Shown here one piece after another: positions 35,046 through 55,643 of a DNA stretch of 64,000 bases. A program made the position numbers and the translations under genes. The notes under the pieces were generated by a model, which saw nothing but the letters and a program-made list of their open reading frames with translations, made no database searches and was not told where the DNA came from. The DNA is taken from contig JAHEZL010000001.1 of NCBI GenBank assembly GCA_023251095.1, forward strand, positions 62,001 through 126,000. The letters run 5' to 3'. Numbering within the stretch: the stretch's first letter is position 1; each line of letters starts with the position of its first letter. The stretch is from Flavobacteriales bacterium. Lineage in GTDB: Bacteria > Bacteroidota > Bacteroidia > Flavobacteriales_C > GCA-002722245.

Positions 35046-37250
35046 CTATTTCATTACAACAATAGTTTTCACCACGCTTTCATTTCCTTTTTTTATTGTG
35101 ATGAAATACAAGCCATTTTCCAGATTATTTATGGATAACGACATATTATTCTCTCCCGAATTAAGCACTTGCACATAATTCAAAACCTCCTGCGACAAGG
35201 AATTGATAAAACTAATAGAAATCTGCTCATCACTTCCCGAATTCAATTTAATATTCAATATTTCACTCGCCGGATTTGGATATATCAACAAATTAGTGCT
35301 TTCATCAATGCTTATTCCTGTAGCGCAATTAGAGGCACTTACGGTTTCTGTGAGCGTTTTAGCAGTGCCCACACAATTGCGTACACTTGTTTCGGTAACA
35401 CTGATCACTCCGCCCGTCGGACCGGAATTCATTGTGATCGATTTAGTTCCTTGTCCGGAAACAATAGTAGCACCTCCCGGTACCGTCCAGTTGAAGGTAG
35501 ATCCCGCAAATCCAGTTGTTGCAAAAACTATCCCTGTTCCGTTAGAACAATTGGCCGCCTGACCGGTAATTGCAGTTGTAACCGGAGTATTGCCAACACT
35601 TTTAAAATCATCAAAATAATAAGTGTGCGAAGTGTAGGAATTCGGTTTGAAAAGAATGACAATCTGATTTAATGAGTCTCCGCTTAAAAGCACATCAGGA
35701 GCATCTTTCAGCGTGAATTTCAAATTGGTCCAGGTATTGGGTGCGCCGGTAATAGCAGTATATCTACTATGAATACCATTAGGCCAACCCTTAGGTGTTT
35801 TCAAACGGTTTTCCAGCTGAATCATTACTTCTGTTCCCGCAGGCGCATCACTGCGTACCATCATATTGAAAGCGGCTGTTCCATTTTTATAACTGTCGGC
35901 ATTGCCTATCACAATATCATTGTAGGCCAATACATCATATTGCGATCCGCCGTTCCTTTCATATTTCCCCACCAGATTAGAAGTGTTGGGCGCTGCTTTG
36001 GCAGGATTATTAAAAGTTCCGTTAGGAAAAGAATTGGTAGTAGTACTCAATCTGTTCATCCAACCGGTAGAAAAATTAAATCCTAAATTACGGGTAGATG
36101 GTCCTTCAAAATCCTCCAGTACCATCGTACAGGTATTGGCCACCACAGATACCGGCAAGCTTGAAGTAGAAGCTGTACAAGATCCTCCTGCTGGCGTGAT
36201 GACAACAGAAACATTTCCACTTACCGCAGCAGCACCATAATCCACTGTGATTTGGCTAGTACCCGCACCAGATTTTACAGTGGCACCAGAAGGAAGACTC
36301 CAGCTATAACTGTTGCCAACCACAGAAGGAACAGAATACACTACGCCTTTTTCACCCTGCAACACTTTTGCATCTCCTGTAATTTGCACTGCCGATGGCG
36401 TACTGTAAACTCGTACATAATCCACCAGCATACTTAATGGATAACGTGAATTATTGGGTGTCGCCATCCCCGGAAACCAGCCATTGATAGCCATATTAAA
36501 GATGATGTAAAACTTATTGTTATCATCAAAAGGCCATGCACCGGCGATGGTATTGCCACTGCTCATTGTAGCGCCTATCTGGATATTGTCTACAAAAAAC
36601 TTAATGGAATTGGGTGCCCAGTCGACACGGTACACATGAAAATCCTTTGATAAATCGCCATTTGGCATCGTGGTGGTATTGATGGTTACACCACCCGTTC
36701 CGCTGGCCTGATTTGCTCCGGCATAATAATGCAACGTACCATTGTATTTCCATTCATTGTACTGGTTACCGGTTTCCATGATATCAATTTCACCTGTGTG
36801 CGGCCAATTGTTGGTTTGTGGTAACATCCAGAAGCCAGGCCATAATTTACTGTCGTTGAAAGGCTCAGGCACTTTTATTCTGGCTTCAAAAGATCCATAT
36901 TTCCAGTCGCCTTTACCCAATGAACGAATTCTTCCACTGGTATAACTGGCTCCTAAATAATTTTCGGCACGGGCAGTGATGACGAGATTTCCTCCGGTGA
37001 CATTTACGTTTTCAGGCCGACTGGTATAATACTGACTCTCCTGGTTTCCCCAGCCCACATCGAGTCCGTCATTGGTGCCGTTACCAATCTGGTAGGACCA
37101 TTTGGATAAATCCAGACTGCTTCCATTGAATTCATCCGACCATACCAATTGTGAGCATTGGGAATAAGCAGAAGAGAATAAGAATAGACAAAATAATGCG
37201 GCAAGTAATTTCCTGCCCCATGCATTAAGCATAGTAATTTTAGTGGTCAT
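35046..37250 (-). CDS. Secreted GH16 beta-glucanase with PKD-like and CBM-like domains, T9SS tail
   Basis: 734 residues. Signal peptide to about SAYSQ at 30. The GH16 catalytic domain (about 31-290) begins LVWSDEFNGSSLDLSKWSYQ, and the nucleophile/acid motif is GEIDIMETGNQ. The family hydrolyses beta-1,3(-1,4)-glucans such as laminarin or lichenan. Then come a PKD-like domain (about 290-372), a beta-sandwich of about 180 residues beginning CTMVLEDFEGPSTRNLGFNF that resembles a carbohydrate-binding module, a second PKD-like domain, and a type A sorting domain (LLIYPNPASEILNIKLNSGS). The start could also be ATG 37232. It faces away from the esterase genes and is flanked by a terminator on its upstream side. 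Confidence 0.9.
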   Translation of the reverse strand: MTTKITMLNAWGRKLLAALFCLFLFSSAYSQCSQLVWSDEFNGSSLDLSKWSYQIGNGTNDGLDVGWGNQESQYYTSRPENVNVTGGNLVITARAENYLGASYTSGRIRSLGKGDWKYGSFEARIKVPEPFNDSKLWPGFWMLPQTNNWPHTGEIDIMETGNQYNEWKYNGTLHYYAGANQASGTGGVTINTTTMPNGDLSKDFHVYRVDWAPNSIKFFVDNIQIGATMSSGNTIAGAWPFDDNNKFYIIFNMAINGWFPGMATPNNSRYPLSMLVDYVRVYSTPSAVQITGDAKVLQGEKGVVYSVPSVVGNSYSWSLPSGATVKSGAGTSQITVDYGAAAVSGNVSVVITPAGGSCTASTSSLPVSVVANTCTMVLEDFEGPSTRNLGFNFSTGWMNRLSTTTNSFPNGTFNNPAKAAPNTSNLVGKYERNGGSQYDVLAYNDIVIGNADSYKNGTAAFNMMVRSDAPAGTEVMIQLENRLKTPKGWPNGIHSRYTAITGAPNTWTNLKFTLKDAPDVLLSGDSLNQIVILFKPNSYTSHTYYFDDFKSVGNTPVTTAITGQAANCSNGTGIVFATTGFAGSTFNWTVPGGATIVSGQGTKSITMNSGPTGGVISVTETSVRNCVGTAKTLTETVSASNCATGISIDESTNLLIYPNPASEILNIKLNSGSDEQISISFINSLSQEVLNYVQVLNSGENNMSLSINNLENGLYFITIKKGNESVVKTIVVMK

Positions 37251-37539: not shown

Positions 37540-38877
37540 TTATTCAAACATTACCTTCATCGTAATCGAATCAGCCTTTTCACCCATTATCTTAATGATA
37601 TATAGTCCATTACTTAAATCATTTCCATTCCACGACAAAGAATTAAATCCTTGGCTATTCAACAAAAAATCATTAGTGTAAACGAGCTTTCCGCTAATAG
37701 AATAAATACAGACAGAATATTTTCCCGCATAATTTACCGATAGTTGCAAATGGGATTTATCCATCATTTTTATTTTAATCCCTTCCTCCATCTCTGTATT
37801 TTCTTCGGAAACCGAAGTGTTTCCGCATGCATTGATTTTTGTATACAAACTATTGGCCAAGGCATTTGCTCCGTATTCACTTAAGTGAGTGGGATCACCG
37901 GAAGCCAACATAGATGCATCGGAAATATCCGGACCTTTAATCAAACACAATAAATTATCGTTGACTTGCCTCGCTGTCACCACCTCTTCCACCATTGCTC
38001 GGAAATCCGCTAAGGAATAAGGCGCAGCACCTGAATTATCAGAAGAATAAATTGGCGTGATGCAATATATTTTGGCCAAAGGATGATACGCTCTCAGTGA
38101 ATCCAGCAATTTACCATATTCCGTTTTTTTGCCGGCCAAACTACCCGTTGAATATTTAAAATCGTTGAATCCTATTTTTATGGTGATATAATCAACATGC
38201 TTTCCTTTTGTGTTGAGGGCAATAGCCCAGCCCAGTGTAGCTCCTGCCACTGCAATATTGTGTAAATCCCAACCCATTTTATTGGCCAGTATAAAAGGAT
38301 AGGTTTTTGCGGATGAAACGTACTGGCCAGTTCCGTGCGTTATAGAATTTCCTATAGATACATAAACCGGTTTATTCAATGCTCCCGGATCAGTTAAAAC
38401 ATATCCATCTGCCAATTGCATACTGGTAAAATCCACTGCCCATAAATTAGGTAGGGACACTTCAAAAGTTGTTTCGCTTCCAGGAGTGGGATTGTTCACT
38501 GTAAATGAAAGAGAAGAATAAGTGGCGATAGAAATTCCTCCCACAAAAACAGAAAATCCATTGGTAGGAGTTGCTCCAATCGTTCCTCCTGTGGCGCGTT
38601 GGGTAAAAGCCATATCAACAGTTGGACTGGCGGTTTTAAACCTTATCCTTACTCCTGTTTGTGTAATCACCCATTGATTGATCCAGGTGCCTGCAATGCC
38701 CGACTCCCAATTGTTCATCATGGAAGTCAGATGACGGTTGAACTCTACTTTTGACGGAGTAACCATAGGATAAAAAACACCATCGTAAGAAATGTTCGGA
38801 TCATCTAAAGGAACAGTCACTTTTGCAAAAGAGAACTGAACGATGAACAACAATATTAAGAGGAAGATTTTTCGCAT
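37540..38877 (-). CDS. Secreted SGNH/GDSL hydrolase with T9SS type A tail
   Basis: I start at ATG 38875-38877 (MRKIFLLILLFIVQFSFA), 445 residues; sixteen more codons are open upstream but precede the signal peptide. Residues about 25-185 form an N-terminal beta-sandwich. The SGNH domain starts at YVSIGNSITHGTG (catalytic Ser), with the third block IKIGFNDF and the C-terminal catalytic pair GDPTHLSEYG (Asp and His). The layout resembles Lipase_GDSL_3-type carbohydrate esterases. The last 70 residues are a type A sorting domain ending DSITMKVMFE. Probably a polysaccharide deacetylase. The upstream element at 38984-39017 ties it to the other two esterase genes. Confidence 0.85.
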   Translation of the reverse strand: MRKIFLLILLFIVQFSFAKVTVPLDDPNISYDGVFYPMVTPSKVEFNRHLTSMMNNWESGIAGTWINQWVITQTGVRIRFKTASPTVDMAFTQRATGGTIGATPTNGFSVFVGGISIATYSSLSFTVNNPTPGSETTFEVSLPNLWAVDFTSMQLADGYVLTDPGALNKPVYVSIGNSITHGTGQYVSSAKTYPFILANKMGWDLHNIAVAGATLGWAIALNTKGKHVDYITIKIGFNDFKYSTGSLAGKKTEYGKLLDSLRAYHPLAKIYCITPIYSSDNSGAAPYSLADFRAMVEEVVTARQVNDNLLCLIKGPDISDASMLASGDPTHLSEYGANALANSLYTKINACGNTSVSEENTEMEEGIKIKMMDKSHLQLSVNYAGKYSVCIYSISGKLVYTNDFLLNSQGFNSLSWNGNDLSNGLYIIKIMGEKADSITMKVMFE

Positions 38878-38904: not shown

Positions 38905-38912
38905 CCAAGGTA
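38905..38912 (-). promoter_or_regulatory. Candidate -7 promoter element of the SGNH gene
   Basis: The minus strand reads TACCTTGG, one base off the Bacteroidota -7 consensus TAnnTTTG. It lies 72 bases after the operator copy and 28 bases before the start codon. The same 72-base spacing occurs at the 40318 gene. Confidence 0.4.
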
Positions 38913-38983
38913 GATGCCCGCACAAAACTTTGCTTTGTAGAGAATGAAAAGCACTTGACTGTTTTGTAATTTCTTAATGAAAT

Positions 38984-39017
38984 CAAAGAATGCAAAGTGA
39001 TTTACAGGAAATGCAAA
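38984..39017 (-). promoter_or_regulatory. Candidate AraC-type operator, copy 1
   Basis: On the minus strand, TTTGCATTT begins at 39017, TGTAAA starts 11 bases later and TTTGCAT starts 21 bases later. The same three words at the same offsets occur at 40181 and 44034. The element ends 107 bases before the SGNH start codon. The 10.5/21-base phasing puts the words on one face of the helix, as expected for AraC-family binding. Confidence 0.7.
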
Positions 39018-39052
39018 TAAAGAAGAGGCCTCTTTAGCGGCAAAATTTAATC

Positions 39053-40132
39053 TTACTGCTCCCGAAATTGTTTCGGACTCACCCCTACTTCCGTTTTAAA
39101 CACACGGTTGAAATGGGAGATATTATTGTATCCCGATTTGTAGGCGATATCAGAAACCGGAAGATCCGATTCTTTTAATAAGCGTTTTACCTCAGCGAGC
39201 CGGATTTGATTCAGATAATTTTTAAACGACGAACTGTGGTTGTCTTTTAATAACTGTCCGATTTCCCGCGCCGAAATACCCAGTTCACGCTGCACATCCA
39301 TTTGCGTTAGTTCAGGATTGCTGTAATTTTTAGAAAGGTATTGAACGATCAAACCCGTTTTATCTTTAGCCTCTGCCTGAATTTCATTGGCTACAAAAGG
39401 AACCAGCACTTTTTTCTTACGCGAAAGCAAAACATAAATCCCCATTGCGCCGTAGCCCAACAAGGCAATTCCAGCAAAAAGCAAATAAACAAAAGTATTG
39501 TCGTTGGTAAACTCAATGGAACTTACTTCAATTTCATCTTCAGCGCCTTTCCCCTGCTCCTGTCCGTTGCCCACTACAAAATAATTAAGGCGACTGAAAT
39601 CGGTATTTTTAAAATCTTTCTCTGTTAACTGATGCTGGCGGTACCACCAACTGGGAGTAGTAAAATCAGAACGTTTTATTTCATAGGTTTTTTCACCGGT
39701 ATAGTCTAGAACGGTAGTAAAAGGAATACTCGACAAAGGTTTTGTATTGGAAGTAAATCCTTTATAATCCAAGGTAAACGACAAAGGAATACGTTTTGAA
39801 TTTTTCGCTTTCAAATGAATTTCAATGCTATTGTAATCGGCTATGCTGAATAAATTATCCGCCGAATCTTTCTTACAGATATAAAAACCCGTGAAAGGTT
39901 CTTCCATAGCAGTAGTGAGCCTGTATTTTAAATGTATTTTCCCTGAATCCAAAGTGGCATTGGAATAAGAATAATTATCGGACAAGGCTTCATGAAAAGT
40001 AGCAAAAGTAAAATCAGAATTTTTATCAAAAGGAAGAATAACAATACGATTGAAATTTAAACTGAAAAAGAAAAAAAACAGCAAAAACCCTGTAAATACT
40101 AATAAAAAAATATTTCGTTGCCCTTTCGTCAT
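39053..40132 (-). CDS. Membrane-anchored AraC-type regulator with periplasmic sensor
   Basis: 359 residues. TM1 lies at about 9-30 (FLLVFTGFLLFFFFFSLNF). Residues about 31-215 are an extracytoplasmic beta-rich domain with many Ser/Tyr/Trp residues, of galactose-binding or CBM-like appearance (FYICKKDSADNLFSIADYNS, TPSWWYRQHQLTEKDF). TM2 is at about 216-236 (VYLLFAGIALLGYGAMGIYV), and the C-terminal AraC HTH spans about 255-359 (LTQMDVQRELGISAREIGQL, LPVSDIAYKSGYNNISHFNR, FKTEVGVSPKQFREQ). It probably senses a periplasmic oligosaccharide and controls the flanking esterase and cellulase genes. It lies between two esterase units and shares its promoter region with the 40318 gene. Confidence 0.85.
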   Translation of the reverse strand: MTKGQRNIFLLVFTGFLLFFFFFSLNFNRIVILPFDKNSDFTFATFHEALSDNYSYSNATLDSGKIHLKYRLTTAMEEPFTGFYICKKDSADNLFSIADYNSIEIHLKAKNSKRIPLSFTLDYKGFTSNTKPLSSIPFTTVLDYTGEKTYEIKRSDFTTPSWWYRQHQLTEKDFKNTDFSRLNYFVVGNGQEQGKGAEDEIEVSSIEFTNDNTFVYLLFAGIALLGYGAMGIYVLLSRKKKVLVPFVANEIQAEAKDKTGLIVQYLSKNYSNPELTQMDVQRELGISAREIGQLLKDNHSSSFKNYLNQIRLAEVKRLLKESDLPVSDIAYKSGYNNISHFNRVFKTEVGVSPKQFREQ

Positions 40133-40180
40133 TTCACCAGCAAGATAAATAAAATCAATGCATTAACAAACAAGATCAAC

Positions 40181-40213
40181 TTTGCATTTTATGTAAAATA
40201 CTTTGTTTTTATG
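40181..40213 (+). promoter_or_regulatory. Candidate AraC-type operator, copy 2
   Basis: TTTGCATTT at 40181, TGTAAA at 40192 and TTTG at 40202: the same words and offsets (0, 11, 21) as at 39017 and 44034. It ends 105 bases before the esterase ATG and 48 bases from the divergent regulator ATG, so it may also mediate autoregulation. A further half-element, an inverted TTTGC/GCAAA pair with a seven-base centre, lies at 40248-40264. Confidence 0.7.
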
Positions 40214-40284
40214 CGTTTTCAAAGCACCGCATTAAAAATCATGTAATTTGCATTTAAAGCAAAGCAAAATCGTTTCCGCTCATA

Positions 40285-40292
40285 TACTTTTG
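40285..40292 (+). promoter_or_regulatory. Candidate -7 promoter element
   Basis: TACTTTTG matches the Bacteroidota -7 consensus TAnnTTTG and lies 26 bases before the ATG of the 40318 esterase gene. No TTTG is found at the -33 position, which would fit an activator-dependent promoter. Confidence 0.5.
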
Positions 40293-40317
40293 ACTTAAAC
40301 TACTAAACTAATAACAT

Positions 40318-41829
40318 ATGTCAAAAAATTTAAAAACAATGGTAAAAAGAACCGTCACAACTATAAAAAAATTGTGCTTGCTGGTTTGCTTAGGATTAAT
40401 GAATGTATGTATGGGACAATACCCGACCCATCTGATTCCGGCCAATGACCCCAAAATACAATACATTGGAAGAATTGACTTCATTAATCCTTTAGCACCA
40501 GCTTTTTCTTTCCCCGGAGTTAGCATTTCCGCAAAATTCAGCGGAACAGCCATCAGTGCCGATTTTAAAGATTACGGAACAGGAAATGCAACTTCTACTA
40601 ATTATTATAATATATACATCGACAACCAATTTGTGAAAGCCCTGAAAGTAGTTAGCTCCACTACCAATTACATTTTGGCATCCGGTTTAAGTAATGATGT
40701 CCATACTATTTTAGTTACTAAAAGAACAGAATCATCGGTAGGTAAAAGCTCCTTCAAAGGATTTTACATCGAAGGTGTTGCCTTGGAAACTCCCGATGCC
40801 CTGCCTTCTAAAAAAATTGAATTCATTGGTGATTCCTGGACTTGCGGTTACGGCAATGAATATTCAGGAGCCGGAGCAAATACAGGTTTCACCTCTAAAA
40901 ATGAAGACAATTATTCGGCCTGGGGAGCTATCACCTCCCGCAGGTTAAACGCCCAATACCATTGCACAGCTTACTCGGGAAGAGGCTTATATAGAAACAA
41001 TGATGGGAATAAAACTACTGTAATCCCTAATGTTTACAACAGAATTTTTCCCGACGATGCAGCTTCTGTTTGGAATTTCAATAACTATATTCCCGATGTT
41101 GTAGTGATTCATCTAGGCACCAACGATTTTGCCAATGAGCAAACCTGGGCAAGCAATCACTCTACTTTGGATTCGGCCTCTTATGTAAACAAATACATTG
41201 GATTTATTTCTGATATCAGAATAGCCTACGGAAGCTCTACAAAAATTGTGTGTGTGAACGGAAGTTCCATTTCTGTTTGGTCAGGATTTGATCAATACAA
41301 CCGATGGAACAATTACATGAACGCTATTTACAATCACTTTGTAGGACTAAGCGACAATAATGTTTACAAATTCAAACTCGCTACTCAGAACGCTCCATAC
41401 GGTGAGGACTGGCATCCTGCCAAACATGAACACATCAGCATGGCCGATCAGATCACTGCCTACATTCAGCAAATCACCGGCTGGCAGGATTGTGCAAGTG
41501 TAAATTCAGGAAATGCTTACTTCGACGAATGTAAAATATGTGTTGGCGGAAATACAGGAAAAACTGCCTGTGTACCAAGTAGTACTTCTATTGATGATAT
41601 AGTGCTTGACAATCATACTTTGCTACTTTATCCAAATCCTGCCAACTCTGCCATTAACATCAATGATGGCGACCAGCAAACCACCTGGAGCATATTCAAT
41701 CAATTGGGAGAAATGGTGCTGAGTGGCAATGGGAAAACCTGTCCGCTTGATAAACTAAGTAATGGCATCTATCATATTTTAACATTGAATGGTGAAAATC
41801 AAAGTGCCGGAACATTTGTAAAAGAATAA
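40318..41829 (+). CDS. CE2-type SGNH esterase with T9SS type A tail
   Basis: 503 residues, signal peptide around 18-33 (LCLLVCLGLMNVCMGQ). Residues 40-160 are the jelly-roll domain of the CE2 family (KIQYIGRIDFINPLAPAFSF, GVSISAKFSGTAISADFKD). The SGNH domain shows IEFIGDSWTCGYGNE (Ser), VVIHLGTNDFANEQ and EDWHPAKHEH (His). CE2 enzymes remove acetyl groups from xylan or mannan, and some also bind cellulose. A Cys-rich linker (DCASVNSGNAYFDECKICVG) of the kind found in Cytophaga-type glycosidases precedes a type A sorting domain. The GH9 gene follows after one base, so the two form an operon. Confidence 0.88.
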   Translation: MSKNLKTMVKRTVTTIKKLCLLVCLGLMNVCMGQYPTHLIPANDPKIQYIGRIDFINPLAPAFSFPGVSISAKFSGTAISADFKDYGTGNATSTNYYNIYIDNQFVKALKVVSSTTNYILASGLSNDVHTILVTKRTESSVGKSSFKGFYIEGVALETPDALPSKKIEFIGDSWTCGYGNEYSGAGANTGFTSKNEDNYSAWGAITSRRLNAQYHCTAYSGRGLYRNNDGNKTTVIPNVYNRIFPDDAASVWNFNNYIPDVVVIHLGTNDFANEQTWASNHSTLDSASYVNKYIGFISDIRIAYGSSTKIVCVNGSSISVWSGFDQYNRWNNYMNAIYNHFVGLSDNNVYKFKLATQNAPYGEDWHPAKHEHISMADQITAYIQQITGWQDCASVNSGNAYFDECKICVGGNTGKTACVPSSTSIDDIVLDNHTLLLYPNPANSAININDGDQQTTWSIFNQLGEMVLSGNGKTCPLDKLSNGIYHILTLNGENQSAGTFVKE

Positions 41830-41830
41830 A

Positions 41831-43999
41831 ATGAAAAAAATACACTTTTTTTTTTGTGTCCTATTGTCTTTTAATGGCATGAGTCAAACCGTAAGTTCGT
41901 ATATAATTATCGACCAATTCGGATACACGCCCAATGCTCAAAAAACAGCTGTATTGCGCAACCCTGAAATTGGATTTGACGCAGCCGAAAACTATAGTCC
42001 GGGTGCAACTTATGCAGTAGTCGACGCATCTACCTGCCTGCAGGTTTTTACGGGAAGCGCAGCAATATGGAGCAATGGTAAAACAGATTCTGTTTCAGGG
42101 GATAAAGCATGGTGGTTTGATTTTTCGGCGGTGACAACACCAGGTATTTATTATATCCTGGATGTTGACCACAGTCTTCGCTCACACAGCTTTGAAATAA
42201 GAGACAACATATACAGTATACCTCTTAAGCATGCAGTAAGAACATTTTATTATCAAAGATCCGGCGCAGCCAAAATTACACCTTATGCTGAATCAGGTTG
42301 GATAGATGGAGTCAACCATGTTGGTCCGCTACAGGATAAAAACTGCCGAAGCTACACTGCTCCAAACGACATCTCTACAGAACGCGATGTTCACGGCGGC
42401 TGGTTTGATGCCGGTGATTATAATAAATACACCAACTGGACAGGCAATTATATTATTGAAATGCTGAAGGCATATGAAGAAAATCCAACGGTTTGGACCG
42501 ACGACTATAATCTTCCCGAATCAGGAAATGGTATTCCTGATCTTTTGGACGAAGTGAAATGGGGAATGGATTATCTTTTACGACTGCAAAAAACCGATGG
42601 CAGTGTAATCAGCCTCGTTGGTGCTTCTCATGCAAGTCCGCCTTCTGCAACAACAGGAAAAAGTATTTATGGAGGGGTAAACACTTCTTCAGCCTTAAAA
42701 GCCGCTGCTACATACGCCTTTGGTTACAGGGTTTTTAAAGCCATAGGATTAACCGCTTATGCCGACACTTTAAAAACCGCCGCAATAAAAGCCTGGAACT
42801 GGGCCGATGCCAATCCATCAGTAATATGGGCAAACACCGACGCTGCCTATCAAAGTGTATCTCCGAGCAGTAGTGCCAATTCCGAAGTGGGTAATTATGA
42901 AAGAATTATATATAAGCTGGAAGCTGCTGTTTACCTTTTTGACATCAGTGCTGATTCAAAATACAAAACCTATTTCGATAATAATTACACTCAATCACAT
43001 CTCTACCAATGGTATTATGCCTATCCATATGAAGCTGGTTATCAGGATGTGTTGCTTCAATACACCAAACTATCGGGTGCAACAACAGCTGTGGCAAACA
43101 CCATAAAAAGTCGCTATAGCACGGGAATGAATGCTGCTATATCCTTTGGAGCATACGACAGTAAAAAAGATCCGTACATGACTTACATTGATTCTTATAC
43201 CTGGGGCAGCAATTCCATTAAATGCAACCAGGGTAATATGTTTTTCAATGTAAGCACATACAATATCAATGCTGCACGGAATACTGATGCTGTAAAAGCA
43301 GCCGAAAACTTCATACATTATATTCACGGCGTAAACCCATTGGGGAAAGTGTATTTGTCAAACATGAACAATTACGGAGCTGAAAATTCTGTTGATGAAT
43401 TTTACCATGGATGGTTTGCGCACGGCAGCAGCAAATGGGACAAAGTTGGCGTATCCACTTATGGACCTCCTCCCGGTTTTCTGGTGGGCGGACCAAATCC
43501 TTCCTACAAAGTACATTCCTGTTGCCCGAACAACTGTGGCGATGCTACAAACAATGCTCTATGTTCTTCGGTTAATTTATCCAGAATCATTAATCAACCA
43601 TCGCAAAAATCCTATATGGACTTTAACAACGGATGGCCGATTGACTCATGGGAAGTAACCGAAAACAGTTGTGGTTATCAAGTGGCTTATATTCGCTTAT
43701 TGTCAAAATTCACAGTCAACAATTCCAATTCGTCTCCCAACGAAGCTTCCTGTACCACTTCCGTTCCGGAAGAAAAATCATTTGATTTCTCTCTTTATCC
43801 CAACCCGTCCGAAACCTCTTTTACTATTCAGGCAAAAGGCACTTTTTCTGTTAAAGTTATTTCACTTGAAGGAAAATTAATTGATTCTTTTGAAGGGAAA
43901 TCAACCCTATCTTTTGGATCCAATCTTGCTGCAGGTTGTTACTTTGTACAAGTATATTCAAGAGATCTTTCTGAAACCAGAAAAATAATAAAGTACTAA
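41831..43999 (+). CDS. GH9 endoglucanase with CelD-like Ig domain and T9SS tail
   Basis: 722 residues with a short signal peptide (FFFCVLLSFNGMSQ). An N-terminal CelD_N Ig-like domain occupies about 21-125 (IIIDQFGYTPNAQKTAVLRN). The GH9 catalytic domain follows: the base aspartates are in GGWFDAGDYNKYTNW (D193 and D196), LPESGNGIPDLLDEVKWGMD lies downstream, the conserved histidine block is at HGVNPLGKVYLSNM and SCCPNNCGDA, and the catalytic acid is probably the Glu near residue 611 in SWEVTENSCGYQVAY. A type A sorting domain (FSLYPNPSETSFTIQAKG) ends it. It cleaves internal beta-1,4-glucosidic bonds of cellulose. It is coupled to the CE2 gene upstream. Confidence 0.92.
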   Translation: MKKIHFFFCVLLSFNGMSQTVSSYIIIDQFGYTPNAQKTAVLRNPEIGFDAAENYSPGATYAVVDASTCLQVFTGSAAIWSNGKTDSVSGDKAWWFDFSAVTTPGIYYILDVDHSLRSHSFEIRDNIYSIPLKHAVRTFYYQRSGAAKITPYAESGWIDGVNHVGPLQDKNCRSYTAPNDISTERDVHGGWFDAGDYNKYTNWTGNYIIEMLKAYEENPTVWTDDYNLPESGNGIPDLLDEVKWGMDYLLRLQKTDGSVISLVGASHASPPSATTGKSIYGGVNTSSALKAAATYAFGYRVFKAIGLTAYADTLKTAAIKAWNWADANPSVIWANTDAAYQSVSPSSSANSEVGNYERIIYKLEAAVYLFDISADSKYKTYFDNNYTQSHLYQWYYAYPYEAGYQDVLLQYTKLSGATTAVANTIKSRYSTGMNAAISFGAYDSKKDPYMTYIDSYTWGSNSIKCNQGNMFFNVSTYNINAARNTDAVKAAENFIHYIHGVNPLGKVYLSNMNNYGAENSVDEFYHGWFAHGSSKWDKVGVSTYGPPPGFLVGGPNPSYKVHSCCPNNCGDATNNALCSSVNLSRIINQPSQKSYMDFNNGWPIDSWEVTENSCGYQVAYIRLLSKFTVNNSNSSPNEASCTTSVPEEKSFDFSLYPNPSETSFTIQAKGTFSVKVISLEGKLIDSFEGKSTLSFGSNLAAGCYFVQVYSRDLSETRKIIKY

Positions 44000-44033
44000 G
44001 TACTTTTCACTCCCCTGTTGAGACTTTAATTCC

Positions 44034-44066
44034 TTTGCATTTTTTGTAAAAAGATTTGTTTTTATA
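44034..44066 (+). promoter_or_regulatory. Candidate AraC-type operator, copy 3
   Basis: TTTGCATTT at 44034, TGTAAA at 44045 and TTTG at 44055, offsets 0, 11 and 21 as in the other two copies. It is the closest in sequence to copy 2 and ends 106 bases before the ATG of the 44172 esterase gene. Confidence 0.72.
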
Positions 44067-44128
44067 GCAAATCCAACAGTTACTTATCTATTTGCACGTT
44101 CCGCAAATCGAAAAAACACTTCCTCCTA

Positions 44129-44136
44129 TACATTTG
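44129..44136 (+). promoter_or_regulatory. Candidate -7 promoter element
   Basis: TACATTTG matches TAnnTTTG and lies 36 bases before the ATG of the 44172 esterase gene, 63 bases after the operator copy. The spacing is nine bases shorter than at the 40318 gene, close to one helical turn. Confidence 0.45.
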
Positions 44137-44171
44137 AGTAATTGGCAAATTAATAACTAAAACTTAGTGTT

Positions 44172-45587
44172 ATGACAAAAGAAAAAATATTGTTTCTACT
44201 GATACTTTTTATAAATGTATCGATGCTAAACGCAACAAGTATTTCACCTGACAATTCGAAAATTCAATACTTCGGCAGATGGGATCACAGTACCCCTACA
44301 CAGCCGATTGGCGGATGGGGATCGGTTTATATTAAAATTAAATTCACGGGTACCGGAATTTCCATTAAGCTGAATGATGCTGCAAATGCCTATCAGTATT
44401 CTATTGATGGAGGCGCAATTACAGTACTTCAATCGGGACAACCTTCCTCAATTACATTGGCCTCAGGATTAAACAACACCGAACACTCACTTGCTTTTTA
44501 CAGAAGAAGCGGCGGCGGCTGGGGACGAACTGTATTTAACGGTTTCGAAATCACCGGAGGAGACATCATTGATCCTGCTTCTCAAAAGTGTTTGAAGTTT
44601 GAATTTGTTGGAAATTCAATCAGTGTTGGATTTAACAACGAAGGAGCTCCCGGAAGCACCAATTCGGCGAATACCGAAAATGGATATATGTCGTGGGGGC
44701 CTCAGCTGGCAAGATTGTATGATGGTGACTGGCGTGTTGAAGCGCACTCCGGACAAGGCATGTACATGAATTTATATAACAACCCCAATAGTCCCGACCA
44801 ATGGACTATGGCCGATGAATTTGAATTACAATATTTCCCGGTATGGATTGGTGGAGATAACCAAAAACCCTGGACTTTTAACGATGGCTTCCAGCCTGAT
44901 GTGTTTATGTGTGCCTTGGGCACCAATGATTTCGCGAACGCAAGTTCCTATCCAACACGCGCACAATTCAATGGAAGATATAATGAATTCTTAAATCTGG
45001 TGCGCTCAAAATATCCCAATGCCATCATCATCCTGTTTGGAATGTGTTTAAAAACATGGGATGTACCGGGCAGTCAGTGGGACATCGCCAACGACAATCT
45101 TAAAGCATTGGTGGAGGATAGAAAAACTGCTGGCGACAACAACATCTTTTTTGTGAATCCAAGACCCGATAAAACCGATGCAACATTATGGCTTCCTAAC
45201 CAAACAGATTATGTAGGCGACTGGACTCACCCTACTGTTGCCGGTGATGCAATCATTGCATCAAAAATGAAAGCATTTATGGATGGAAATACTACTGTCA
45301 AAAACAAACTGGATCAATTGATCACAGGATGCAGCGCAACTGCAATTGACGAAAGTGATCTTTCAAAAACCAATCTATTAAATGTTTATCCCAACCCGGC
45401 ATATAATATCCTAACTATTGACAATATGGACAATCAAACAACATGGAAGATATACAATCAAATAGGAGAGTTGGTTCAGCAAGGAAGCGGAAAATATTGC
45501 AACATTGAAAATCTGAGTCCTGGAGTTTATCATATCGTTGCGGTTTCGGGAGAACAAAACCATATAAGTTGCTTTGTAAAAGAATAA
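44172..45587 (+). CDS. CE2-type SGNH esterase with T9SS type A tail, second copy
   Basis: 471 residues, signal peptide MTKEKILFLLILFINVSMLN. The CE2 jelly roll begins KIQYFGRWDHSTPTQPIGGW, and the SGNH domain shows FEFVGNSISVGFNNEG (Ser), FMCALGTNDFANASSY and GDWTHPTVAGDAI (His). The type A sorting domain (LNVYPNPAYNILTIDNMDNQ to CFVKE) is strikingly similar to that of the 40318 protein, so the two share a recent tail. It is a separate transcription unit with its own operator and promoter. Confidence 0.88.
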   Translation: MTKEKILFLLILFINVSMLNATSISPDNSKIQYFGRWDHSTPTQPIGGWGSVYIKIKFTGTGISIKLNDAANAYQYSIDGGAITVLQSGQPSSITLASGLNNTEHSLAFYRRSGGGWGRTVFNGFEITGGDIIDPASQKCLKFEFVGNSISVGFNNEGAPGSTNSANTENGYMSWGPQLARLYDGDWRVEAHSGQGMYMNLYNNPNSPDQWTMADEFELQYFPVWIGGDNQKPWTFNDGFQPDVFMCALGTNDFANASSYPTRAQFNGRYNEFLNLVRSKYPNAIIILFGMCLKTWDVPGSQWDIANDNLKALVEDRKTAGDNNIFFVNPRPDKTDATLWLPNQTDYVGDWTHPTVAGDAIIASKMKAFMDGNTTVKNKLDQLITGCSATAIDESDLSKTNLLNVYPNPAYNILTIDNMDNQTTWKIYNQIGELVQQGSGKYCNIENLSPGVYHIVAVSGEQNHISCFVKE

Positions 45588-45630
45588 TGAAGATGCTTTT
45601 TCTTGTAGTAGTGTAGTTGGGGATTCAGGT

Positions 45631-45678
45631 GTTCCGGGGGTTCCTGTTTTAGAGGGAAAACAGTTTTCCCCCGAGAAC
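45631..45678. promoter_or_regulatory. Long nested hairpin in the leader of the expansin operon
   Basis: GTTC-CGGGGG pairs with CCCCCG-a-GAAC around an inner CTGTTTT/AAAACAG stem with loop AGAGGG. It lies 44 bases after the esterase stop and 43 bases before the next ATG. No T-run follows on the plus strand, so a simple intrinsic terminator is unlikely; it could be an mRNA stabiliser, processing site or leader structure. Confidence 0.55.
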
Positions 45679-45720
45679 ATTCTTTGATCCAGAAAGAATT
45701 AAAAAACTAAAAATAAGTAT

Positions 45721-47241
45721 ATGGTGAAGTGGAATTTTATTTTTTGTATAGTCCTGTTTTTGAGTTCATCTTTTCATTTATTTTCTCAAACCTATGCGCA
45801 AGGAAATTATACAGGAAACGGATCATCAAAAGTAATTTCTGGTTTAGGATTTCAACCCGAATGCGTGATCATTAAATCAGCAGGCGCTTACGAAGCAGTT
45901 ATTACAACCGCCAATATGCCGGCAGGAAAAAGCAAAGCAATGGGCACTTCGGGCGTAGCCCTGGCAACCGAACAAATCAGTTCTCTTAATGCTGATGGAT
46001 TTACTATAGGTGCAGGAACTTCTACAAACAACAATAACACACAATATTACTGGATCGCCTTTAATGAAAGTACCGGTATTCATGTAGGAACTTATGTTGG
46101 CGACGGTCCCGGAAATCCTGAAACAATAAGTGGTTGCGGATTTATTCCCGACGCTTATATTTTAATGGGCGACGAAACCAGTACGGATGGAAATGCTCAA
46201 ATCAATTTAAATTCTCTTTCCGCATCGGGTAACGGGTTTTATATTTTTGACGGAGCGGTGGCTTCAGGAACTTTTAGTGCTTGGACTGCTGATGGATGGA
46301 CCACACTTGGAGGAGCAACTTCAGCCGACAACAGCGGAGTAAATTACTATTACATCGCCTTTGATGCAAATTCAAATATCAAACAAGGTTCCTATCCGTC
46401 GCTTTCTGAAGCGCAAACCGACAATTATGCTGTAAATGACATAGGTTTTCAACCCGACTTTTTAATTGCTTATCCCTATGTTTCTACACCAAGAACTCCT
46501 GTATTCAGAATGGGATCTATCAATTCGGGCGATGACAAATCCCTTTTATTTACAGCCACTGCCTCAAGCACTAATTTAATCCAGGCCTTCACTGCCAATG
46601 GTTTTACTGCAGGAAATGATGACAGAGTTCACAAGGCTTGGCAAACACAACATTATTATTTCGCTTTAAAAGGAGGTAGTGCACTCCCTGTTGATCTTAC
46701 AGAATTTGAAGTAAGCAAGCATGGAGAACAAGCTTTGATTGAATGGTCAACTGCTACAGAAATAAACAGTGATTATTATGAAGTTCTTCGATCTCCCAAC
46801 GGAATTAATTTTAAGAGCATCGGCAGAATTGAAGCTGCAAACAACAGTACACAAATTCAAAATTATTCCTTTACGGACGAACATCCGCTAGAGGGTATCA
46901 ACTATTATCGTTTAGCTGAAATTGACAATGGCGGTCGCTACGAAAAATTTAAAATAAAATCACTCACTTTCAATTTCGCCAATATCATTACTGATTTTTT
47001 TCCCAACCCGGTAAACAACAATGTTACTCTTCTTTTTAACTCGTATAGTGATGAGAATTACGATTTACAAATTTCCGACCTGCTTGGCCGAACACTTTAT
47101 TCATTGCAAACACAGGCTGTAAAAGGGATAAATCAACTTAACCTCACTACCAATAATTTATCGGCTGGAATTTATTTTATCAATTTAACAGACACGAATA
47201 ATCATGTGTCTTCAATGAAATTTATGAAATCCGAATACTAG
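45721..47241 (+). CDS. DUF7483-like beta protein with T9SS type A tail
   Basis: 506 residues, signal peptide LFLSSSFHLFSQ. Residues about 23-310 contain three similar units of roughly 80-90 residues: YTGNGSSKVISGLGFQPECV, YVGDGPGNPETISGCGFIPD and the unit with NDIGFQPDFLIAYPYVSTPR. Each pairs with WIAFN/YIAFD or a YFALKG strand. This repeated pattern resembles the DUF7483 domains of phage structural proteins. After LPVDLTEFEVSKHGEQALIE, an Ig/Fn3-like unit, the type A sorting domain starts DFFPNPVNNNVTLLFN. It is the first gene of the operon with the type-B surface protein and the expansin. Function unknown. Confidence 0.75.
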   Translation: MVKWNFIFCIVLFLSSSFHLFSQTYAQGNYTGNGSSKVISGLGFQPECVIIKSAGAYEAVITTANMPAGKSKAMGTSGVALATEQISSLNADGFTIGAGTSTNNNNTQYYWIAFNESTGIHVGTYVGDGPGNPETISGCGFIPDAYILMGDETSTDGNAQINLNSLSASGNGFYIFDGAVASGTFSAWTADGWTTLGGATSADNSGVNYYYIAFDANSNIKQGSYPSLSEAQTDNYAVNDIGFQPDFLIAYPYVSTPRTPVFRMGSINSGDDKSLLFTATASSTNLIQAFTANGFTAGNDDRVHKAWQTQHYYFALKGGSALPVDLTEFEVSKHGEQALIEWSTATEINSDYYEVLRSPNGINFKSIGRIEAANNSTQIQNYSFTDEHPLEGINYYRLAEIDNGGRYEKFKIKSLTFNFANIITDFFPNPVNNNVTLLFNSYSDENYDLQISDLLGRTLYSLQTQAVKGINQLNLTTNNLSAGIYFINLTDTNNHVSSMKFMKSEY

Positions 47242-47254
47242 AAATTTAACCCCG

Positions 47255-50200
47255 ATGAAAACACCTGGCTTATATTTTTTGAACAAAAGTTTTTACTTAT
47301 CATTCCTCCTTTCCTTCCTCCATTCAACAGGATATGCACAAACATGTTCCGGCAATAATTCCTGGGAATGGAAATCACAATCCAACTGGTTAATCACAGG
47401 CAAAAACATCCTTCAGTTTAACAACAATAAAAACATTGTTCAGAGCATTGGTGGTGGAAAAGATATTTTTTCGGATGGAAACTGCTATTGCCAGGGATTT
47501 GAAGGAACTACCTCCCCCAGCGATGATCAGGGGAATTTAATTTTTTACAGCGCAGGAAAAGTTTTTTGGGATAAAAATTATCTTAAGAAAGGAACTTTTA
47601 AAGGAAATGCAACCAGTGATCAAAACAGCGCTGTACAAGGAATTTTAACCGTACGCCATCCATTGGTTCCCGATTTATATTATGTATTCACCGGTGATGA
47701 TGAGGTAGGCGGAGCAACCAATGGCTTCCATTATCATGTAGTGGATAAAAACGGAACTTTAATCACTCCTGCCACCCCTCTTGGATTTTTCAGCTTTGAA
47801 GGAATGAATGCCACTCGTCATACCAATGGAGTTGACATATGGATCACCACCTTAGAACATGGAACAGGCATTTTTAAATCTTTTCTTTTAACCTGTAATG
47901 GTTTAAACACAACACCTGTAAATTCTCCCGTTGGCTGTAAAACAGTAGCACAGGCCATTAGAGGAGCTTTGGAGTTTTCTCCCGATGGCACTAAAGTGGG
48001 TGTTGTTCATCATGCTCCCGCCAACAGAAATGAATCTGTAATGATTATGGATTTCAACAGAACTACAGGTGTTTTATCCAACTCCTTGAAAGTTTCAGCT
48101 CAATGGAGCGGTTGGGGCTGGAGTCCGACAAACAGTGGCAGTGCTTATGACTGTGAATTCTCTCCGGATGGATCCAGATTATATATCACTTTTTTCACGG
48201 GAGGTGTTGAAGTATACGATCTATCAAGCAATAATGAAAGCACCATTTTTTCTTCCGTTAAATTATTAAACAGCGGTGGCCTTGGTTGTTTGGAAATGGG
48301 TCCCGACGGAAAAATGTATCACAACAACAGCGGGACACTAATGGTTTCTTCCGGTAATTTAAATACTGGCGCAGTGAATTTCGTTTCAAGCGGACTCACA
48401 GGTTTTAGCGGTTTGGGGTTACCCAACATGTATCTCCCTCCGCAACTGGAACCGGACATCCAGGAAGCTGGCCCCTTTTGCAATACCGACGAGGCAATTG
48501 ATTTAAATACTACCTGGCTCTGTTTGGGAAGCAATGCAGAGGATCCAAACGGCAATCCGACGAGTGTGTATTCTGGAAAAGGAATCACCGATTCAGGAAA
48601 AGGAATTTTTGATCCTAAATTAGCAGGAGAAGGAATCCACCGGATTATTTTTACCAAATGCAGTGTTGACGATACGATTTTTATTACTGTGAATAAATGC
48701 TCTGTTCTTTGTCCGGATACTTCACTAAAAAACATCACTCCTATTTGTGTTGGATCAACAGTAGATTTAAATGCTCAAAAAATCACTACTGAAAACGGAA
48801 CATGGAGCATTCAGGGCAATGGCGCAAATTACCCGACTTTAGCGGGTAATATTTTCACCACAACTGCGAACACAACATCAGGATCTTATCTTGTTCGTTA
48901 CACTTTAAATCCTTTGCCGCTTGACGCAAGCTGTCCGGCTTACGCAGAAAGAACGATTAAAATAAATAAAATTCCTTCCCTTACATTTACCACTACTGAG
49001 GTATGTGAAGGCTCAACGTTGATTACATTTAATGGCAGTCCGGCTGGCGGAACTTACAGAGGAACAGACATAGTTGGCAATACCTTCAACCCTGTTTCAC
49101 CAGGCTCCACAACAATAATTTATGTCTATACTGACAATAACGGTTGCAACGACTCTATAACAAGTACTCAGACAATAAATGCAAAACCAAATCTTGTGTT
49201 CACCACCACACCTGTGTGTGAAGGATCGAGTGAAATTAGTTTTTCAGCCGCTCCTGCCGGAGGAACTTATTCGGGAAGCGGATCTACTTTCAATCCAATA
49301 ATAGCAGGAACAACAGCCATTACTTATTCCTACACCAATGGAAAAGGCTGTAATAATTCTATAACCACTAATCAGGTAGTAAATGCTAAACCTATAGTAA
49401 CATTCACAACAACGCCGGTATGTGAAGCCTCGGGTATAATCACTTTCAATGGAATTCCAACAGGAGGAATTTACAGCGGTGCGGGAATAAGTGGTACAAC
49501 ATTTAATCCGGTAAAAGCAGGTATGCACGACATCACCTATACTTATACTGATGCCAATGGCTGCATCGATTCTGCAAAGGCCAGTCAAGAGGTGAGTGCA
49601 AAACCAATTGTATCTCTCCATGATCAAAGTATTTGTCCGGGAAGCACTGCGGAACTGGATGCAGGAATTGGAGATGGAAGCTTAACTTATTCATGGGCAC
49701 CCAACGGAGAAAACACTCAAAAAATAAGGGTAAAAAGCGACGCAATTTATTCGGTAAAAGTCACTAATAATAATGATTGTTTTACATCAGACACTGCTAT
49801 GGTAACGGTAAATGCTGATTTGAATATTGATTTAGGCCCTGATCAATCCATCTGTGCAGGTGAATCACAAACCTTCACAGCAAATTATGCCGGGAGCGGT
49901 ATCATTTATATTTGGAGCGGACCAAATACTTATAGTAATTCCACAAAGGCAATAACGGTTTCCGATGCCGGAACTTATCATGTGAATGTATCTGATCCAT
50001 CGGGATGCACTGGCAATGATGAAGTGCGGCTTATTGTAAATTCTCTACCCGCTCCAACATTAAGCGATGGAGAAATTTGTGAAGGAACTTCACATATTTT
50101 TGATGCAGGCACTTATGATTTTTATCAATGGTCGACTGGGGAAACGAGCAAAAGCATTTCAACATCGCAAAGCAACACCTTCACAATAACAGTTACTGAT

Positions 50201-51187: not shown

Positions 51188-51228
51188 CACTGCAATTACT
51201 AAACACTTTTACTTAAACCATAAACTTT

Positions 51229-52209
51229 ATGAAAAAACAATTACCTATTCTGCCCTTCGCTTTATTGGCAGGCGGATTATTAAATGCACAATCACCCTGC
51301 GACGCAACAATTTACAGCGGCGGAGAAGCTACTTATTACACACTTATTGAACAAGCTCCATCAGGCTCACGAAGTGGACATTGTTCTTTTTATGCCGACA
51401 ACATCAAGCCATACTACGGCGCCATGTACACACCTTTGTATGCCAACTCAGCTGAATGTGGAGTGTGCCTGGAAGTAAGTGGTACAGCAGGAACAAAAAT
51501 TATTGAAATTGTAGATGAATGTCCGGATTGCAAAAAAATAGGAGATATTGATTTGAGTCCAACAGCATTTCAAGAAATCATAGGTCCTTTAAGCATTGGA
51601 AGAAGCAATATCCAATGGCACGAAGTAGCTTGCCCGTGGGGAGCATCACCTATCAATGTTACCACTCAATCCACCAATCAGTGGTATGCAAAAGTGACCA
51701 TAGGAAAACACAAAAACAGAATCAACAAAGTAGAAATTTACGATCCTTATTCCTCTGCATGGGTAAACATGAACAGAACTGCCGACAATGGCTGGATCAA
51801 CGCTTCATTGATAAGTATCACAGGTACAACCAATGTTCGGATCACTGATGTGTTCGGTCAGATACTTACAGTAAGCGGCGTGGAAATCGCAAGTGGCATT
51901 GATAAAACTTTTCAGGGAACCTCAAACTTCACTCCCTGCCTGAGTACCGATATTGCAGAGTATGAAATGGTACGACACATTAGTGTATATCCAAATCCAA
52001 TGTCGGATGGATTAGTGATTGATGATATTCAGGGAATAAAAACAATTCATCTTTATACTATTCTTGGCGAACTGATTTATAGTGAATCTCTCACTGGCAC
52101 AGCTTCCCGAACACAAATATATTTACCGGGTTTAGCAGCAGGAACCTATACTATTCAGCTTTCAAACGACAAACAAGTAGTATACAACAGTAAATTAATC
52201 AAGATGTAA
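51229..52209 (+). CDS. Bacterial expansin with T9SS type A tail
   Basis: 326 residues, signal peptide to LLNAQ at 21. D1, the double-psi beta-barrel, spans about 24-140: GGEATYYTLI, AECGVCLEVSG, IVDECPDC (D96) and IGDIDLSPTAFQEI (D108). These two Asp residues correspond to the positions essential for loosening activity in Bacillus EXLX1. D2 (CBM63 type) spans about 145-235 with the aromatic cellulose-binding platform as W152, Y153 and Y171 (NQWYAKVTIGKHKNRINKVE, YDPYSSAWVNM). Extra cysteines (C77/C80/C98/C101) may form disulfides or bind metal. A type A sorting domain (SVYPNPMSDGLVIDD) replaces the usual plain end. Expansins loosen cellulose without hydrolysis, so it should assist the GH9 and CE2 enzymes. 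Confidence 0.88.
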   Translation: MKKQLPILPFALLAGGLLNAQSPCDATIYSGGEATYYTLIEQAPSGSRSGHCSFYADNIKPYYGAMYTPLYANSAECGVCLEVSGTAGTKIIEIVDECPDCKKIGDIDLSPTAFQEIIGPLSIGRSNIQWHEVACPWGASPINVTTQSTNQWYAKVTIGKHKNRINKVEIYDPYSSAWVNMNRTADNGWINASLISITGTTNVRITDVFGQILTVSGVEIASGIDKTFQGTSNFTPCLSTDIAEYEMVRHISVYPNPMSDGLVIDDIQGIKTIHLYTILGELIYSESLTGTASRTQIYLPGLAAGTYTIQLSNDKQVVYNSKLIKM

Positions 52210-52223
52210 ATTCATTTTTCAAT

Positions 52224-52256
52224 AAAAAAGTCCCGGAAATTTTCCGGGACTTTTTT
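52224..52256. terminator. Bidirectional rho-independent terminator
   Basis: AAAAAAGTCCCGGAAA pairs with TTTCCGGGACTTTTTT around a minimal loop. It has A/T runs on both sides and lies between the stop codons of the expansin gene and the convergent type-B surface protein gene, so it should end both transcripts. Confidence 0.92.
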
Positions 52257-52260
52257 ATCT

Positions 52261-55353: not shown

Positions 55354-55643
55354 GTCTCCGGTGTAAGTGAATTAACTATTCACCCGAAGTTATGTGCTAA
55401 ACAAAAAAAAACGTTTGTATGGAATGTTAAATGCTTGACTATTCTATACATTCTCCGTAAAATCAATTAACGCAAAGAATTTTACATTAAATACAAAGTA
55501 ATAAATTGATTATAAAGGTCTGGAGGGAAAGTTATATAGGAAAGTATCTGTCTATTTTACGCCTACTTACAAAAGCATTCTTTTGATTTTATCTGGAGTA
55601 TTGAAAATCAGGAGGCTTTTTTTTATTTCAAATACTTTCTATT

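Follow-up and report, generated by a model that had tools for sequence, protein, structure and literature searches.

Introduction

At the araBAD promoter of E. coli, AraC recognizes two direct-repeat half sites approximately 21 bp apart, one of which lies by the promoter, and its distant sites are helically phased. In Bacteroides, the direct-repeat motifs of HTCS regulators have been described as 16 bp with a 5-bp spacer, 12 with 9 or 14 with 6, that is, with a period near 21 bp, and SusR-type operators as two conserved sites 67 or 77 bp apart, corresponding to six or seven helix turns (portions of PMC3878776). The membrane-bound AraC-type factors of Saccharophagus degradans, which were expanded by lineage-specific duplication and lie beside cellulose-degradation genes, were proposed in 2008 to detect extracellular polysaccharide (portions of PMC2386152). 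A literature search for the operator of a membrane-bound AraC regulator returned only this Saccharophagus genome paper, which contains no operator in the portions considered here (PMC2386152); one set of search terms on AraC looping gave no match.

Here we analyze a 64-kb window, by which we mean the whole stretch of DNA under study, in which one precisely spaced DNA element recurs at four genes or gene groups whose products are secreted enzymes acting on sugar polymers. The source bacterium is an uncultured lake-type Bacteroidota with a genome of 3.59 Mb.

Results

The 25-bp core and its specificity in the genome

The core pattern TTTG-n7-TGTAAA-n4-TTTG, 25 bp long, occurs four times in the window with 0 mismatches (Table 1). 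The first-pass annotation had placed its words, at offsets 0, 11 and 21, before three esterase units; all three sites are exact, and the fourth copy precedes a CHU_C protein instead of an esterase. The distance of 105-107 bases to the start codon given there fits an element of ~33 bp (ends 38984 and 44066), whereas the 25-bp core ends 112 (CE2), 113 (second CE2), ~115 (GDSL) and 119 bases (CHU_C) before the ATG. As had been noted, two of the three sites share a 72-base distance to the -7 element; counted from the first T of the core to the -7 TA, the three distances are 104, 105 and 95, and that of the fourth site is 105. As stated there, the regulator gene has a copy on either side and runs divergently from the one at 40181.

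Table 1. Genes and proposed operator parts at the locus, in window coordinates
Feature	Position	Strand	Details
GDSL-type esterase, type IX secretion tail	37540..38877	-	Lipase_GDSL_2 E 5.5e-15; ATG at 38877
-7 element TACCTTGG, GDSL unit	38905..38912	-	22 bp from proximal box
Proximal inverted box, GDSL unit	38934..38958	+	TTTGn7TGAAAA..TTGA on + strand
Distal tandem, GDSL unit	38976..39017	-	core 38993-39017; two TTTG boxes 21 bp apart
Regulator, 359 aa	39053..40132	-	predicted TM 3-26, outer domain about 27-212, TM 213-238, AraC-type HTH about 258-358
-7-like TATCTTGC, regulator's own promoter	40140..40147	-	start of divergent distal operator 34 bp upstream
Distal tandem, CE2-GH9 unit	40181..40222	+	core 40181-40205; also upstream of divergent regulator promoter
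Proximal inverted box, CE2 unit	40239..40263	-	TTTGCTTTAAATGCAAA on - strand from 40263
-7 element TACTTTTG, CE2 unit	40285..40292	+	
CE2-family carbohydrate esterase, type IX tail	40318..41829	+	CE2_N E 5.1e-26
GH9 cellulase-type glycoside hydrolase	41831..43999	+	Glyco_hydro_9 E 1.9e-50
Distal tandem, second CE2 unit	44034..44075	+	core 44034-44058
Proximal inverted box, second CE2 unit	44083..44107	-	TTTGCGGAACGTGCAAA on - strand from 44107
-7 element TACATTTG, second CE2 unit	44129..44136	+	
Second CE2-family carbohydrate esterase	44172..45587	+	
DUF7483	45721-47241	+	same strand as and downstream of second CE2
CHU_C protein	47255-51187	+	downstream of DUF7483
Expansin-like DPBB protein	51229-52209	+	DPBB_1 match below Pfam cut-off
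Terminator-like hairpin	52222-52258		after expansin-like gene
CHU_C (type IX secreted) repeat protein, 1030 aa	52261..55353	-	target of fourth operator
-7-like element TAACTTCG, fourth unit	55385..55392	-	
Proximal inverted box, fourth unit	55414..55438	+	
Fourth distal tandem (CHU_C unit)	55456..55497	-	core 55473-55497

GH9 starts 2 bp past the end of CE2, and the two genes are probably co-transcribed. The GH16 gene (35046-37250) was dropped as a target; it has no upstream site, and between it and the GDSL gene stands a terminator-like hairpin (37514-37490).

Only five exact core matches exist in the entire 3.59-Mb genome, four of them in the window, and the reversed pattern gave 0 matches genome-wide; the random scatter that the first-pass annotation had named as the adverse outcome did not occur. 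The fifth match (C42:81965) was discarded as an operator, being inside the rplS coding sequence. With 2 mismatches the core is too loose to serve alone (236 matches versus 163 in the reversed control) and was set aside, as was a sigma-70-type consensus scan, which was uninformative at this locus. In a profile scan that scored the 150 best first-look candidates of each genome, and in which weak distant sites could therefore be missed, the four island sites reached E values of 2e-9 to 7e-7; the next best match (0.005, C6:99866) lay within an ORF and was discarded. The expectation that a genome scan would find sites before other cell-wall genes failed, the putative regulon being confined to the island except for one trans candidate in a sister species.

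Architecture of the proposed operator

The core makes up just one half of the element. It opens a direct repeat whose period is 21 bp, such that each distal site carries TTTG boxes at 0 and 21 and TG at 11, giving two TTTGn7TG.A-type boxes per tandem; these are direct-repeat half sites on one face of the DNA approximately 21 bp apart, as in AraC/XylS operators. A second copy of the box, inverted, lies downstream of the distal tandem and adjoins the promoter, and in 11 of 12 promoters its start lies exactly 22 bp ahead of the TA in the Bacteroidetes -7 element. The spacing between distal and proximal sites is 72-73 or 82-84 bp, close to 7 or 8 turns of the helix.

Every operator ends at a Bacteroidetes-type -7 element, which has the form TAnnTTTG in all six CE2-type regulon promoters, the near-match form TAnCTTGG/C in the GDSL units and the form TAACTTCG in the CHU_C unit. 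No -33 element TTTG is present at its usual offset in these promoters; the columns there belong to the inverted box, with CAAA at -25 to -22 from the TA. Among 30 TAnnTTTG promoters, CAAA occurs at this offset in six, precisely the CE2-type regulon promoters, and in 0 of the other 24.

The joint pattern, drawn up after these promoters had been seen, gave 11 matches in 721 kb, with all spacings at 72-73 or 82-84 within a permitted range of 60-99, compared with 2 in 8 Mb of simulated sequence. Across ten genomes it gave 8 matches, all at expected places, and its reversed control gave 0. The proximal pattern with 2 mismatches stayed at background level; its exact matches alone are specific, all six falling at expected promoters.

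The neighboring regulator

The C-terminal domain of the regulator is a dual-HTH domain of the AraC type (HTH_18 E 3.7e-22, HTH_AraC E 6.2e-10), which matches AraC, XylR and MarA structures by profile and the AraT and YesN domains by fold; HTH families are the only ones above the Pfam cut-off in this protein. In Pfam scans, neither the regulator nor any of 19 relatives showed a histidine kinase or receiver domain, which sets the regulator outside the HTCS. The two predicted helices flank a beta-sandwich domain, a one-component, two-TM layout of the Saccharophagus type, and, also as there, the gene stands beside polysaccharide-degradation genes, namely CE2, GH9 and the GDSL esterase.

The predicted model of the outer domain, of moderate confidence (mean pLDDT 70), matches CBM11 (1v0a; Z 14.7, rmsd 3.0, 159 aligned) and NDUFAF1/CIA30 (7zkq; Z 14.1, 168 aligned), which suggests a CBM11/CIA30-type galactose-binding-like beta-sandwich over its whole length at a sequence identity of about 12%; a weak Pfam CIA30 match appears in 5 of 20 family members. 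By this fold match, the domain resembles a beta-glucan-binding module. The gap between the -7-like element of the regulator's own promoter and the distal operator is 33-34 bp in all five species examined, which makes autoregulation likely.

Conservation in sister species

In all four sister species (G001-G004), the regulator-CE2 site adjoins the orthologous regulator (E 1.3e-8 to 4.7e-10), and the gene order GDSL-regulator-site-CE2 is kept in 5/5 species. The boxes are invariant at fixed offsets across the five species while the intervening bases vary. The GDSL site also has a counterpart in all four, conserved more weakly and fitting the distal tandem with 1-bp slips allowed. In G004, the proximal box of the GDSL promoter is poor, and a second, unlinked CE2 gene carries a distal site, a candidate in trans whose promoter fits the operator layout approximately. 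Five sister-genus genomes, encoding only distant homologues of the regulator, yielded no match comparable to the regulator-CE2 site among the 150 best first-look candidates of each.

Discussion

The sites, their spacing, their conservation and their specificity are established here, together with a predicted domain layout of the regulator. The earlier reading of the element as an operator for a dual-HTH AraC protein is well supported on comparative grounds, insofar as it is conserved beside the orthologue in four sister species, phased with the -7 element and absent elsewhere in the genome among the best 150 candidates scored; the element described there was incomplete, lacking the second, inverted half near the promoter. 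We consider it probable, at roughly 0.7, that the element is the operator of the neighboring regulator, a one-component, membrane-anchored AraC-type activator of a local glucan-degradation regulon.

We infer which protein binds, its ligand, looping or bridging, and activation rather than repression. In the periplasm, the outer CBM11/CIA30-like domain would bind a fragment of beta-glucan or hemicellulose, upon which paired cytoplasmic AraC domains would occupy the distal tandem; protein-protein contact across the phased spacer, over which the distal and proximal sites would face one another at about 7 or 8 helical turns, would then fill the weaker proximal site beside RNA polymerase, which might stand in for the usual -33 element. 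The four units thus switched on would supply esterases, the GH9 cellulase, the expansin-like protein and adhesion-type proteins.

The same sites and architecture could serve repression by this regulator, with the proximal box over the -33 region, a possible loop to the distal site and release on glucan fragments. The box does cover the -33 place, TTTG is missing from the usual offset there, and repression loops, too, make use of phased distant sites, as is established for AraC itself. Yet the -7 elements of two window units (TACCTTGG and TAACTTCG) are non-optimal and without a -33 element, as activator-dependent promoters should be, and catabolic AraC-type proteins are mostly activators (portions of PMC2386152), so that we regard repression as improbable. 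Slightly less probable still is that another protein reads the operator and the neighbor is a bystander. Paralogous membrane-anchored AraC regulators are encoded in the same genome (C16 and C29), and family members overlap in the boxes they prefer, given that ACTTTGC boxes 21 bp apart occur in G004 at a distant paralogue's locus; inspection of the paralogue loci L050, L089-L096 and L099-L101 revealed no clear copy of the operator. Against such a reader, the sites track the orthologous regulator in 5/5 species, are absent from the sister-genus genomes with only distant homologues (best 150 candidates per genome), and include a conserved one between regulator and CE2.

That the similarity is a functionless remnant of promoters duplicated along with their genes is very improbable. 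The two CE2 proteins are homologous (31% identity), and the GDSL and CHU_C promoters of the window are identical at 66/105 positions, so the four window copies are not fully independent; nevertheless, invariant boxes amid varying bases in five species, and a spacing that shifts only by one helical turn, speak against it. The notion of a promoter type general to the genus, with an extended -33 region, has the least in its favor: it fits the Bacteroidetes-type -7 element at the end of every operator, but it is largely refuted by the CAAA control (0/24) and by the joint pattern, found nowhere else in ten genomes.

Returning to the activator reading, we can add a tentative extension, which we hold at somewhat below even odds: a membrane-fixed protein pair may bridge the promoter and the distal site through two opposed tandem operators 7 or 8 turns apart, and this cis-code (a distal tandem, then a phased gap and, 22 bp from the -7 element, an inverted proximal site) may have been copied onto newly acquired genes, building the local glucan regulon. 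New enzyme and adhesion-type genes make up an insert of about 13.5 kb, and its transcription units bear the probable operator of the resident regulator. For a membrane-bound AraC-type regulator, the locus thus offers a probable operator that is precise, conserved, searchable and fixed in its geometry relative to the promoter, and this geometry is a rule for locating the targets of related regulators. The proposal of outside-polysaccharide sensing (portions of PMC2386152) thereby becomes concretely testable.

The distal tandem resembles the direct-repeat half sites of E. coli AraC in its ~21-bp period, and both systems have phased distant sites; however, AraC is soluble and binds arabinose, whereas here a membrane-anchored regulator goes with a proximal site that points the opposite way from the distal tandem. 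With the HTCS of Bacteroides (portions of PMC3878776), the locus shares a membrane sensor that ends, C-terminally, in an AraC-type DNA-binding domain, a repeat period close to 21 bp and control of polysaccharide genes in Bacteroidota, but the present regulator, with 359 aa and two TM segments, has no histidine kinase or receiver, and the extra inverted site at a fixed 22 bp has no counterpart in those portions of the HTCS description. The closest likeness in protein type and gene context is to S. degradans, where a membrane-bound one-component AraC-type regulator likewise lies next to cellulose-degradation genes; that organism is a gammaproteobacterium for which the same portions of PMC2386152 describe gene context and no operator, whereas here a probable operator can be given with its spacing, along with an outer domain that is CBM11-like. 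SusR-type operators also have far-apart sites in two spacing classes one turn apart (portions of PMC3878776), but those are direct repeats read by a different, large protein family, whereas the sites here are inverted and 72-73 or 82-84 bp apart. Direct repeats of ~21 bp and membrane-bound AraC regulators beside cellulases were already known; the phased, inverted double-tandem layout is new.

Results

The first-pass annotation had described three copies of the pattern TTTG-n7-TGTAAA-n4-TTTG in the window; all three match without mismatch, but the total of three did not hold, because a fourth exact copy precedes the CHU_C unit. Across the whole genome (43 contigs, 3.59 Mb) the pattern matches exactly five times, the fifth time inside the rplS gene, and the reversed pattern, used as a control, had no match in the same genome. 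When the best 150 candidates per genome were scored with a sequence profile of this distal site, the four window sites obtained E-values of 2e-9 to 7e-7 and the next place in the host's genome 0.005, all of these values being rough. The core lies 112 (CE2), 113 (second CE2), about 115 (GDSL) and 119 (CHU_C) bases upstream of the ATG, and the site's first T lies 104, 95, 105 and 105 bases, respectively, upstream of the TA of a -7-like element.

Alignment of the eight strongest sites revealed that the 25-bp pattern forms the leading part of a direct repeat in which ACTTTGCATTTT-n-TGTA stands at position 0 and recurs at position 21. A search of both strands of twelve promoters identified a second, opposite-strand copy, TTTGn7TGnAAA(n4)TTG; in 11 of the twelve, the first T of this copy precedes the -7 element's TA by exactly 22 bp. 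In an ungapped alignment anchored on the -7 element, TCA (-46 to -44), TTT (-38 to -36), C (-34) and CAAA (-25 to -22) are nearly invariant, and the bases between these columns vary. The distal and proximal boxes are 72-73 bp apart in three promoters and 82-84 bp apart in the rest, two classes separated by one helical turn; the distances are strongly phased at a 10.5-bp period (Rayleigh R 0.94), with promoters that are related by descent and hence not independent.

Specificity was examined with distal, proximal and joint patterns that were written from these same promoters. The joint pattern combined the distal site, the proximal box and the -7 element, with a gap of 60-99 between site and box. 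In 721 kb it matched 11 times, only at expected places, whereas simulated sequence gave 2 matches in 8 Mb; over ten whole genomes the joint pattern occurred at eight places, again all expected, and its reversed control at none. The proximal pattern alone gave six exact matches in the same ten genomes, all at expected places. Among 30 TAnnTTTG promoters in the sequence examined, six carry CAAA at the proximal-box offset, and these are exactly the six CE2-type promoters of the predicted regulon.

Features of the regulator locus and its predicted target units in the window
Feature	Position	Strand	Content or remark
Terminator-like hairpin	37514-37490		closes unit
GDSL promoter	38905-39017
Regulator	39053-40132	-	membrane-anchored, AraC-type
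Regulator's promoter region	40120-40180
Predicted target unit 1			GDSL esterase
Predicted target unit 2			CE2 esterase, then GH9 enzyme
Predicted target unit 3			second CE2 esterase, then DUF7483 protein, CHU_C protein, expansin-like protein
Predicted target unit 4 (CHU_C unit)	52261-55353	-	second CHU_C protein
Inserted block	41831-55353		GH9, second CE2, DUF7483, CHU_C, expansin-like, CHU_C
Terminator-like hairpin	52222-52258		closes unit
CHU_C promoter	55385-55497
Fourth exact distal site	55473-55497	-

In the regulator, an outer domain of ~185 residues lies between two transmembrane helices, the first of them N-terminal, and the second helix is followed by an AraC-type HTH domain. Proteins of all four units carry type IX secretion tail domains, the tail of the GDSL esterase scoring just under the cut-off. 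The best fold matches of the outer-domain model (mean pLDDT 70) are to CBM11 of Lic26A-Cel5E from Clostridium thermocellum (Z 14.7 and rmsd 3.0 over 159 residues) and to CIA30/NDUFAF1 (Z 14.1), ahead of CBM30 and further beta-sandwich modules. Pfam CIA30 is matched weakly by 5 of 20 members of the regulator family. This modelled fold and the gene neighbours together suggest that the outer domain senses carbohydrate. In the regulator's form, the domain occurs in 5 of 149 genomes of a class-wide sample, all five in the family of the window's host.

Each of the other four genomes compared from the genus has a regulator orthologue (54-69% identity). The four, which are metagenome-assembled Bacteroidota genomes, all keep the gene order GDSL esterase, regulator, CE2 esterase, with a site in the regulator-CE2 intergenic region and a weaker version in the GDSL intergenic region. 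The sister genus contains only distant regulator homologues (25-29% identity), and the profile search found no comparable site in its genomes. One related locus (CAMBXP010000111.1) comes from a metagenome-assembled genome titled Chryseobacterium gleum; this title is probably wrong, since the locus clearly belongs to the genus that the other uncultured genomes share.

In three sister genomes (G002, G003 and G004), a TPR gene closely follows the CE2 gene, from which a single GH18 gene separates it in G002. At this junction, the window has an inserted block of about 13.5 kb, in which GH9 directly follows CE2 and both transcription units with their own promoter (the second CE2 unit and the CHU_C unit) carry the predicted operator. 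The CHU_C and GDSL promoters are identical at 66 of 105 positions, versus a random 99th percentile of 40, and promoter copying is therefore a likely route; an identity of this extent suggests that the whole promoter was copied together with the operator.

A profile built without it detected a further site (23.4 bits) on contig C80 of G004 (locus L102, 3020-3260). This good distal tandem site precedes an unlinked CE2-type esterase with 38% identity to the window's second CE2, and the promoter has a poor inverted box 74 bp from the distal site; the esterase is a candidate regulon member in trans. In the regulator's own promoter, a -7-like element lies 33-34 bp from the regulator-CE2 distal site in all five species, which suggests autoregulation. 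This promoter region also holds more conserved bases, TTGATTTT ahead of TATCTTGC, in three species.

On contig C17 of G004 (locus L098, 3880-4070), a CE2 gene comes after a distant paralogue (28% identity) of the membrane AraC regulator. The gap between the two genes contains three ACTTTGC boxes with a spacing of exactly 21 bp, and 43 bp separate the nearest box from a -7-like TATCTTGC. The box-to-(-7) offsets of 22, 33-34 and 43 differ by steps of about one helical turn. More paralogous membrane AraC regulators adjoin secreted type IX-tail proteins at five loci (L091, L094, L096, L099 and L100); no operator is obvious there by this pattern, and each paralogue may have its own.

Discussion

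We propose that the membrane-bound sensor would hold two AraC domains as a pair on the strong distal tandem, and that a second pair would bind the weaker inverted proximal site, the two pairs making contact over 7 or 8 helical turns. Such contact would set the activator beside RNA polymerase at promoters without a -33 element. In this scheme, we infer the sequence of steps, the formation of a loop and the sign, namely activation.

In the literature searched, we found no inverted double tandem at a fixed distance from the -7 element in combination with a membrane AraC regulator of the CBM11-like kind; it is this combination that appears to be new, its separate parts being known. AraC-type operators with direct repeats of ~21 bp are known, including those of HTCS in Bacteroides (PMC3878776), as are membrane-bound AraC regulators beside cellulases in Saccharophagus (PMC2386152). 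For SusR, widely spaced site pairs in two classes one turn apart are reported (PMC3878776); the window's operator likewise has far-apart sites and two spacing classes that differ by one turn.
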